In this document: positions 1-3,584 of the stretch, in pieces
How positions within the stretch are numbered: the stretch's first letter is position 1
Layout of the letters: each line of letters starts with the position of its first letter
Origin: a virus
IMG/VR virus record: IMGVR_UViG_3300017987_000326
Span: 1-26,136 of that record
DNA: 26,136 nucleotides
Direction: 5' to 3' (one strand)
The notes under the pieces: generated by a model
What the model was told of the DNA's origin: nothing
The model's input: only the letters and a program-made list of their open reading frames with translations
The model's database searches: none
Translations under genes and position numbers: made by a program

Positions 1-140
1 ACTAATCCGTGCAGAAGTGGTACGAAGCGCGCGCCCTCCCAGGGGCTCCCACATCAGCGGGGCGGCATGGCGCCGTCGCCGCATCTGACTGTTGCCCGTG
101 CTGGCCGGGCTTCCTTGACCAGCAACAACAGGAGAACACA

Positions 141-395
141 ATGGTTGAATACCTCACTTTCGGTGAAGCGCTCGAGGCCCTCAAGGATGGAAAGCGTGTC
201 TGTCGGGACGGCTGGAACGGCAAGGGCATGTGGCTCGTGCTCATCCACCCCGGGAACGCCATGCACACCAGCATGGCCGGTGCCTTCGACATGCAGCCAT
301 GCATCGGCATGAAGACCGCGCAGGGCGTGATGCAGCCCGGCTGGCTTGCCTCTCAGGCTGACATGCTGGCCGAGGACTGGATGGTTTTGGGCTGA
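141..395 (+). CDS. tad2: Tad2-like anti-Thoeris protein (DUF2829 family)
   Basis: This 84-residue protein matches the DUF2829 family, whose characterised members are Tad2 proteins. Tad2 is a phage cytoplasmic sponge that binds the cyclic ADP-ribose-type signal made by Thoeris TIR proteins and so blocks that defence. The recognisable pieces are an N-terminal FGEALEALKDGKRVCRDGWN block (about residues 6-25), the GKGMWLVLI strand after it, an IGMKTAQG segment and the highly diagnostic C-terminus WLASQADMLAEDW. The length is near that of known Tad2 proteins (about 90 residues). I chose the ATG at 141 because GGAG lies 7 bases upstream and the family homology begins there; the frame stays open to a GTG at 9, but those residues look non-coding. 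The gene points opposite to the lysis genes and stops 3 bases short of the end of the convergent gene, with no visible terminator. Family membership is confident; ligand choice cannot be read from sequence. Confidence 0.88.
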   Translation: MVEYLTFGEALEALKDGKRVCRDGWNGKGMWLVLIHPGNAMHTSMAGAFDMQPCIGMKTAQGVMQPGWLASQADMLAEDWMVLG

Positions 396-398
396 CCC

Positions 399-938
399 TC
401 ACTCCCACCACGCCGTAGCCCCAGCACCGAGCCACACGCCGCCCGCTGCCGCCCCTGTGACGGCGAGGGGCAGCCCCACGCCCAGGGCCCACCGAAGCAC
501 CCGCTCCCGGCTCTCTACGTCGCTGTGAGCCGCCTGGAGGGCCCTGTAGCGCTCGTCAGCTGTGGCCCGGTCCAAGAGCCGCCCGTGACGCTCTGCGACC
601 GCTGTGTCCTGCCAGTAGCGCACCAGGTCGGCCTGGCGTTCGTACCAGAGCACGGTCGAGGTAGGCAGCGCCATCCCATCACAGGGCGCGCCCCATGCCT
701 CCCATCCGTCTTGGTTCGCGTAGATGGGCCACTCTCCGACCAGGGGCAGGCCCTCGGCTTCGTGGGGCGGGCTGGGGATGAGCGCGACCTCAGGGCAGCC
801 GTCGTAGCTGTCGATCTCGGCTTGCTCCTCGGGCGTCCACTCAAGGAGCTCCGCGGGGGGATCGAGGGGCGGAAGGTCGTGCCAGTGCTGGGGAGGCTGG
901 TGGGGGACGCAGGCGATGAGGAGGGGGAGCAGGGTCAT
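399..938 (-). CDS. Candidate unimolecular spanin (lipobox plus C-terminal membrane segment)
   Basis: This 179-residue protein has a lipobox-like LIAC at residues 7-10, a proline-rich stretch, a charged and probably helical region at about 98-147, and a hydrophobic C-terminal segment at about 149-171. A lipidated N-terminus joined to a C-terminal inner-membrane anchor is the definition of a u-spanin, which bridges both membranes and disrupts the outer membrane in the last step of Gram-negative lysis. Its place at the end of the lysis block, overlapping the preceding gene by ATGA, supports this. Two points argue against it: the signal would be only 9 residues with no positive n-region, and the basic residues just before the C-terminal segment would have to be periplasmic. 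It could instead be a tail-anchored membrane protein. The gene is well supported; the function is a structural inference. Confidence 0.62.
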   Translation of the reverse strand: MTLLPLLIACVPHQPPQHWHDLPPLDPPAELLEWTPEEQAEIDSYDGCPEVALIPSPPHEAEGLPLVGEWPIYANQDGWEAWGAPCDGMALPTSTVLWYERQADLVRYWQDTAVAERHGRLLDRATADERYRALQAAHSDVESRERVLRWALGVGLPLAVTGAAAGGVWLGAGATAWWE

Positions 939-1222
939 CGCCTCCCCCTCAACACCCTCCGCAGCGCCCGCGCCCGCTCTGCCCTGTCCTCGATGGCCAG
1001 CACGCCGCGACGCTCCTCCTCGGTGGCCCCCAGGGCCTCGAGGCGCCTGTCGGCCTCCTCGTCCTCCTGTTCAGCGATGATGGCCGCCACGCTGACCTCC
1101 TCGGAGTCGTCGGGGATGATCGCGCGTTGCTTCCGGCGCCAGAGCCAGGAAAGCCCCGCGACGACGGCACAGGACAGGGTCAGGGCTCCGAGGGCGGTGA
1201 GGATGTGGATGGCTTCGGGCAT
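935..1222 (-). CDS. Small membrane protein of the lysis block
   Basis: This 95-residue protein starts with a membrane segment (about residues 5-28), followed by RRKQR and a highly charged, probably helical tail rich in Glu and Arg. I chose the ATG at 1222 because it follows the upstream stop by two bases and gives an N-terminal membrane segment; a longer in-frame version to 1312 would only overlap the neighbour. Its stop overlaps the next start by ATGA. In a lysis block, a membrane segment plus charged helix suggests an i-spanin-like protein. However, the basic cluster right after the segment predicts the tail stays in the cytoplasm, which is wrong for an i-spanin. A holin-associated or antiholin-like role is equally possible. 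No family was recognised. Confidence 0.65.
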   Translation of the reverse strand: MPEAIHILTALGALTLSCAVVAGLSWLWRRKQRAIIPDDSEEVSVAAIIAEQEDEEADRRLEALGATEEERRGVLAIEDRAERARALRRVLRGRR

Positions 1223-2280: not shown

Positions 2281-2691
2281 ATGAAACCCCTTCGAGTCAC
2301 CATCCCCACCAAGCACACTGCCCGCATCGACACCATCCGGCGGGCCATGGAGCGCGATCCAGACGAGGCTCGCGGGCAGATCATGCTCGGAGACGTGGTT
2401 CGCGAAGCCATGGTGATCGGCCTCGCCGCCATGGAGAAGCGGATCCCGGCGGTCACAGCCACCACGGCCAACGACAGCGACGGCCGCTACCGCGTCACCC
2501 TGCTCGACCATGGGCCGAAAAAGATCGCCTGCATCAAGGCGATCCGTGAACTGACCGGGCTAGGGCTCAAGGAGGCGAAGCAAGCCAGTGAGCAGGCTCC
2601 GATCACGCTGCTCACGACAGACGAGCGCGCCTTGGCGAACGAGTGGATCCGGCGCCTGCGCGAGACTGGCGCCTCGGCGGCGGTGTTCTGA
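2281..2691 (+). CDS. RHH-like N-terminus fused to ribosomal protein L7/L12 C-terminal domain
   Basis: This 136-residue protein has two parts. Residues 1-52 begin with a short beta-like strand (LRVTIPT) and two helices, a layout like ribbon-helix-helix DNA-binding proteins. After a linker of about 16 residues, residues 70-136 match the C-terminal domain of ribosomal protein bL12, including KKIACIKAIRELTGLGLKEA and the end ETGASAAVF. Residues I85, K86, R89 and K100 line up with E. coli L12 I69, K70, R73 and K84, part of the surface that recruits translational GTPases. The normal L12 N-terminal domain that docks on L10 is missing. AGGAG lies close upstream of the ATG at 2281, and the stop overlaps the next start as TGATG. 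L12 domains are known in some phage genomes; the role here (translation control, or a DNA-binding adaptor) is inference. The domain call is strong, the RHH call moderate. Confidence 0.85.
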   Translation: MKPLRVTIPTKHTARIDTIRRAMERDPDEARGQIMLGDVVREAMVIGLAAMEKRIPAVTATTANDSDGRYRVTLLDHGPKKIACIKAIRELTGLGLKEAKQASEQAPITLLTTDERALANEWIRRLRETGASAAVF

Positions 2692-2912
2692 TGCCCCGCC
2701 CCCGCATCCTCCCCTCAGATTGCCCCTGGGCCTCGCTCGTCGAGGCGGGGCTGATCAGCAAGAGCCAGGCCAACAACTACCGGAACGGGCACGCGAAGCC
2801 CACCCCGATCGCCATCACGCACTTCCGCAGCATCGGCTACGAGGTCACCATCCAGGACGGTCGCGCCGTGTGCGAGCGGTGGCCGGGGATGGGTGGGGGG
2901 GGTGCCGAATGA
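2691..2912 (+). CDS. Small possible helix-turn-helix protein
   Basis: This 73-residue protein is tied to its neighbours by TGATG at the start and ATGA at the end. The central part (about residues 13-50) reads as helices with a Cro/YdaS-like spacing: an alanine/leucine helix ending GLISKSQANNYRNG, then a second helix IAITHFRSIG. That resembles small phage repressor-like or antitoxin-like HTH proteins, but there is no decisive motif. The C-terminus ends in a low-complexity glycine run. An earlier in-frame ATG at 2643 lies inside the preceding gene and is not favoured. It may regulate the cassette; no function is assigned. Confidence 0.6.
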   Translation: MPRPRILPSDCPWASLVEAGLISKSQANNYRNGHAKPTPIAITHFRSIGYEVTIQDGRAVCERWPGMGGGGAE

Positions 2913-3379
2913 GTGACCACCACCTGCTCGCGTCCGATCTACCGGGGGTACTGGAGGGCTGGTGCGGGCCTGTCCTCCTTCGCGACAGCCACGGCACGGA
3001 GGAAGGACACATCGAGAACGGGCGCTGCTGGACCGTCGAGAACGGGCGCAACGCCTGCCTCTGGTACACCGAGCACCCCGAAGTGTCTGTCCGCCTCGAC
3101 CTCGCCCGCCCCGAAATCCAGCACCACATCTGCCTCACCTGGGGGCCGCGGGTGGACGAGCGGTGGCGCATGGAGTTGGGGCGATTCGGGATGGTGTACT
3201 TGAGTGGCATGTGTGGGACATGCTGCACGACCCCGCTCGACTACAAGAGCACCACCATGGACAGGGATGACTACATGCAAGAGCGCATCCGCGCCCACTG
3301 GCTCTCCCTCCTCGGCAACCCAGCCGCCATCGCCGTCGAGTGCCGGGCGGTGGTCGAGGGGGTGCAAGATGAGGGGTGA
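2909..3379 (+). CDS. Hypothetical phage protein, cysteine-containing
   Basis: This 156-residue protein was not recognised. It starts at an ATGA overlap and ends overlapping the next gene by 11 bases, so it belongs to the same coupled plus-strand unit. It is soluble, has no signal peptide, and mixes acidic and aromatic residues. A Cys-rich patch GMCGTCCTT lies at about residues 100-108, with further cysteines at 19, 40, 50, 75 and 145; a metal site is possible but no complete motif is clear. The C-terminal third looks helical (about 119-150). The coding call rests on overlaps, consistent composition and lack of a better frame. Confidence 0.7.
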   Translation: MSDHHLLASDLPGVLEGWCGPVLLRDSHGTEEGHIENGRCWTVENGRNACLWYTEHPEVSVRLDLARPEIQHHICLTWGPRVDERWRMELGRFGMVYLSGMCGTCCTTPLDYKSTTMDRDDYMQERIRAHWLSLLGNPAAIAVECRAVVEGVQDEG

Positions 3380-3584
3380 CGAGCTCGATAGGTGCCCGTA
3401 CTGCGGAGAGGAACGCCCGTGCGGGTGTCCAAACGCCGAGATCGACAGGCTCCGCGCGAGGCTTGCCGGTCTCGAGGATCAGTTGGACCACTGGAGTGAG
3501 CGTGCGACGAAGGCGGAATCTGAACTGGACGCGATACGCAGCGTCATGAGGAAACTGTTCAGGTTCATGGAGTCGAACCGATGA
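3369..3584 (+). CDS. Small zinc-ribbon plus coiled-coil protein
   Basis: This 71-residue protein begins with a compact cysteine cluster, CPYC at residues 9-12 and CGC at 18-20, which is a plausible half or complete small zinc knuckle. The rest (about 23-70) is a continuous charged helix with heptad-like spacing (IDRLRARLAGLEDQLDHW), suggesting a dimeric coiled coil. The start at 3369 overlaps the preceding stop by 11 bases and the homology-like N-terminus begins there; the frame is open upstream to 3204 but that is the shadow of the preceding gene. The end overlaps a tiny downstream frame. Short zinc-plus-coil proteins are common accessory products in phages; function is unknown. Confidence 0.62.
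   Translation: MRGDELDRCPYCGEERPCGCPNAEIDRLRARLAGLEDQLDHWSERATKAESELDAIRSVMRKLFRFMESNR

Follow-up and report, generated by a model that had tools for sequence, protein, structure and literature searches.

The window analysed here is a complete linear IMG/VR record of 26,136 bases, starting at position 1 of that record. Close to its left end, on the plus strand, lies a Tad2-like (PF11195) gene at 141-395, which runs from ATG to TGA and encodes a protein of 84 residues with a single domain and no N-terminal extension. The ATG is only 140 bases from the end of the record. It is directly preceded by AACAGGAGAACACA, and a Shine-Dalgarno-like element, AACAGGAGAAC, can be read from the sequence at 126-136 (+). 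A longer version of the gene starting from the GTG at position 9 (128 residues) was considered and set aside, since its additional N terminus bears no resemblance to the domains that precede Tad2 in longer relatives and the ribosome-binding site belongs to the ATG at 141. At the other end, the TGA is 3 bases from the end of a convergent open reading frame, 399-938 (-). A terminator scan of the region near 1-1400 found none, and the sole promoter-like match, at 115-142, runs into the start codon, for which reason we do not believe it.

The gene adjoins the lysis region, marked by an M15 endolysin gene, and, as the initial annotation stated, the endolysin gene and its neighbors are encoded on the opposite strand. 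Two overlapping small genes beside the endolysin, 399-938 and 935-1222 (both on the minus strand), look by eye like a spanin pair: one has a lipobox-like start (MTLLPLLIAC) and a hydrophobic segment near its C terminus, and in the other a hydrophobic N-terminal segment leads into a charged stretch. Neither gave anything above the cut-off in Pfam or PHROG. The initial annotation also suggested that further accessory genes may lie on the plus strand just beyond the left edge. A group of small plus-strand genes is present inside the window as well, where four of them occupy 2281-3584. The product of the first (2281-2691) is 136 residues long and contains the C-terminal domain of ribosomal protein L7/L12 (PF00542, E = 3.4e-15). 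The head, tail, and terminase genes follow on the minus strand (3655-26076), their TerL, portal, and capsid labels being assigned from size, order, and weak profile matches only. Most of the structural proteins had no match in the PHROG search. Among 50,697 phage records, TerL had one weak match, and the portal and a large tail protein had none; scans of viral contigs with TerL and a capsid-region protein found no contig. Judging from these comparisons, the phage apparently represents an undescribed lineage of tailed phages.

The assignment of the 84-residue protein to the Tad2 family was computed in several ways, and the profile, the sequence search of the PDB, the alignment, and the fold all agree with the DUF2829/Tad2 homology proposed in the initial annotation. 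The PF11195 profile (Tad2-like; Thoeris anti-defense 2-like, DUF2829) covers residues 6-82 with 93.4 bits (E = 1.2e-26), for a curated cut-off of 25 bits. A phmmer search of the PDB recovered every solved Tad2, i.e., SptTad2, HgmTad2/AcrIIA7, ModTad2, and SPO1 gp34.65, with a best E value of 2.6e-17. The AlphaFold2 model of the monomer, for which L059 was left out of the input rows, has a pLDDT of 82.7 and a pTM of 0.71. When this predicted fold was compared with the PDB, all 24 matches with E < 0.001 were Tad2/AcrIIA7 chains, and the next match had an E value of 0.65. The TM-scores of the significant matches, normalized by query length, range from 0.64 to 0.75, and the matches include SptTad2, ModTad2 with hisADPR, HgmTad2 with 1',2'-cADPR, and SPO1 Tad2 with gcADPR. 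PADLOC and NCBIfam gave no match for the protein. With profile, PDB search, alignment, and fold in agreement, 141-395 is a new member of the widespread and already known Tad2 family.

The nearest relative is the Tad2-like protein of another viral locus, L002 (IMGVR_UViG_3300035380_000021), with 77% identity over 82 aligned residues. The two sequences differ strongly in composition, with a G+C content of 65% in our window and 42% in the L002 locus. Their differences fall at codon positions 1, 2, and 3 in the numbers 22, 8, and 57, and synonymous sites are saturated (pS of about 1), with a pN of 0.17. Relative to L002, the open reading frame is thus under strong purifying selection, and the combination of saturated pS, low pN, and codon-position bias shows that it is a conserved coding gene.

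According to a review (PMC12043709), Tad2 proteins are tetramers whose ligand pocket is built from two protomers, the first contributing the beta1-beta2 loop, the beta3-beta4 loop, and strand beta4, and the second contributing the beta1-beta2 loop, the beta4-alpha3 loop, and helix alpha3. Two segments of our protein fall within this pocket region. The beta1-beta2 loop, RDGWNGKGM (residues 22-30; 204-230, +), keeps the residues that are invariant in the family. The beta4-alpha3 loop and helix alpha3 (residues 68-80; 342-380, +) read WLASQADMLAEDW, as in the C-terminal ending quoted in the initial annotation. In an alignment with L002, Goe10 gp34.65 (a near-identical stand-in for SPO1), ModTad2, HgmTad2, and SptTad2, our protein has the conserved residue at each of the 18 invariant positions, among them those of the GWNGKGM loop and of the W..S..D..A.DW segment. 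A broader comparison, with 54 relatives drawn from contigs of viruses and bacteria, left 10 invariant columns, again all kept (A10, R22, W25, G27, W68, D74, L76, A77, D79, and W80). Hence, at the level of motifs, the alignments show no loss of residues in the pocket region. This complete retention of the pocket-forming motifs bears on the idea that the Tad2 fold has a role here outside Thoeris, either binding some other nucleotide or serving in structure or regulation. Phages carry the family very widely, the function of few members has been assayed, our protein has a short beta3-beta4 region that it shares only with L002, and the domain often lies at the C terminus of longer proteins; since some relatives are built in this way, the fold may have other uses. 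With the motifs intact, we nevertheless regard such a role as unlikely for this protein.

From strand beta2 to strand beta5, the intervening segment (residues 31-67; 231-341, +) is shorter than in all four characterized types of Tad2. Counted between M30 and W68, it has 37 residues, compared with 42 in the SPO1 type, 42 in ModTad2, 54 in SptTad2, and 60 in HgmTad2. The long insertion that marks the subtype binding cyclic dinucleotides is thus missing. The ligands of the family are known to be diverse. The initial annotation took the signal to be a cyclic ADP-ribose isomer, which holds for SPO1 Tad2 with its gcADPR isomers, but not for MoTad2/ModTad2, whose ligand is His-ADPR (PMC13299392). No binding of 3'3'-cGAMP is seen with SPO1 Tad2 (PMC11722364), and HgmTad2 and SptTad2 additionally bind cyclic dinucleotides by means of the long beta2-beta5 insertion (PMC12043709). 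Because the segment is short in our protein, the cyclic-dinucleotide site is probably absent.

This matters for the alternative of a dual sponge that would also, or mainly, sequester cyclic dinucleotides and thereby block CBASS, as SptTad2 and HgmTad2 do. The beta4-alpha3 segment of our protein, GWLASQADMLAEDW, is nearer to that of HgmTad2 and SptTad2 (GWLASQTDM.A.DW) than to that of SPO1 Tad2 or ModTad2, and the best fold match in the PDB is SptTad2 with cGG. However, the insertion in which the cyclic-dinucleotide site resides falls 17 to 23 residues short of its length in SptTad2 and HgmTad2. Since this argues against a pocket for cyclic dinucleotides, a sponge restricted to Thoeris is likelier than one acting on both Thoeris and CBASS, and we hold the dual activity to be improbable. 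As to the Thoeris signal itself, the GWLASQ.DM segment resembles HgmTad2/SptTad2 more than it does SPO1/ModTad2, so both a gcADPR isomer and His-ADPR stand as candidates from sequence. A further alternative, that of a Cas9 inhibitor of the AcrIIA7 type, originates in nomenclature: HgmTad2 and AcrIIA7 are one and the same PDB chain, which is why the Tad2 family bears the AcrIIA7 label. Reports on AcrIIA7 activity are conflicting (PMC13131331), ligand complexes show HgmTad2/AcrIIA7 structurally as a nucleotide sponge, and our protein has no link to Cas9. An anti-CRISPR function would therefore be very surprising.

Taken with these alternatives, the most likely function that we infer for the 84-residue protein is anti-Thoeris activity, and we are fairly confident that 141-395 encodes a Tad2 sponge of minimal size that takes up a Thoeris signal of the ADP-ribose type and is devoid of the cyclic-dinucleotide pocket. 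By analogy with the solved members of the family, the protein would form a homotetramer whose inter-dimer pockets could hold the ADP-ribose-derived alarm nucleotide produced by the Thoeris TIR protein. Sequestration of this nucleotide would keep the ThsA-type effector off, and the infected cell would not abort the infection. The conclusion is in itself an ordinary one, adding one more phage carrier to a known counter-defense family.

Relatives of the gene are indeed found in very different phages. A tblastn search identified relatives in 393 phage records, none of them reaching 60% identity, among them phages of Vibrio, Escherichia (including N4 gp49), Klebsiella, and Listeria. The scan of bacterial genomes for Tad2 revealed only relatives with 42-52% identity, in several phyla. 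In L020, L012, and many other viral loci, the Tad2-like domain forms the C-terminal half of longer proteins, in which the N-terminal domain is of the GYISWSPADVFDRAYR type and has no Pfam match. One locus (L034:7605-8282) encodes tandem Tad2-like domains in a single protein of 226 residues, with two Pfam stretches, the first of which has degenerate motifs.

Within this diversity, our protein and that of L002 group together in the tree (100/98), which is otherwise poorly resolved and does not place our protein with any characterized Tad2. The two share a 37-residue beta2-beta5 segment with IHPGNAMH..FDMQPCIGMKTA. The L002 protein differs in having about 45 additional N-terminal residues, and its gene lies upstream of terminase genes in a phage unrelated to ours, the two loci showing no synteny on inspection of the open reading frames of L002. 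One could propose that the two proteins form a compact subfamily recognizing a Thoeris or TIR signal for which no Tad2 is yet known, carried by a phage lineage that is unrelated in other respects, but we give this little credence.

Among the characterized proteins, SPO1 Tad2 (gp34.65) resembles ours in its fold, in being a small stand-alone protein, in its invariant motifs, and in having no long insertion. The identity is 39% (measured on the Goe10 homolog), and the SPO1 type has AWVPSQTDVLAEDW and the longer beta2-beta5 segment noted above. ModTad2/MoTad2, the His-ADPR sponge of a Myroides odoratus prophage, shares the fold, the length class, and an identical GWNGKGM loop, with 42% identity, but has TWTPSVSDILAEDW where our protein has GWLASQADMLAEDW. 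Their beta2-beta3 regions also differ, so a His-ADPR ligand should not be assumed for our protein. The highest identity (47-51%) is with SptTad2 and HgmTad2 (AcrIIA7), which share with it the GWLASQ.DM.A.DW segment but carry the long insertion holding cyclic dinucleotides. This compact Tad2 from an apparently undescribed tailed phage of high G+C content could hence be a natural test case for the parts of Tad2 that govern ligand choice, since it combines a C-terminal pocket segment like that of SptTad2 and HgmTad2 with the absence of their cyclic-dinucleotide insertion.
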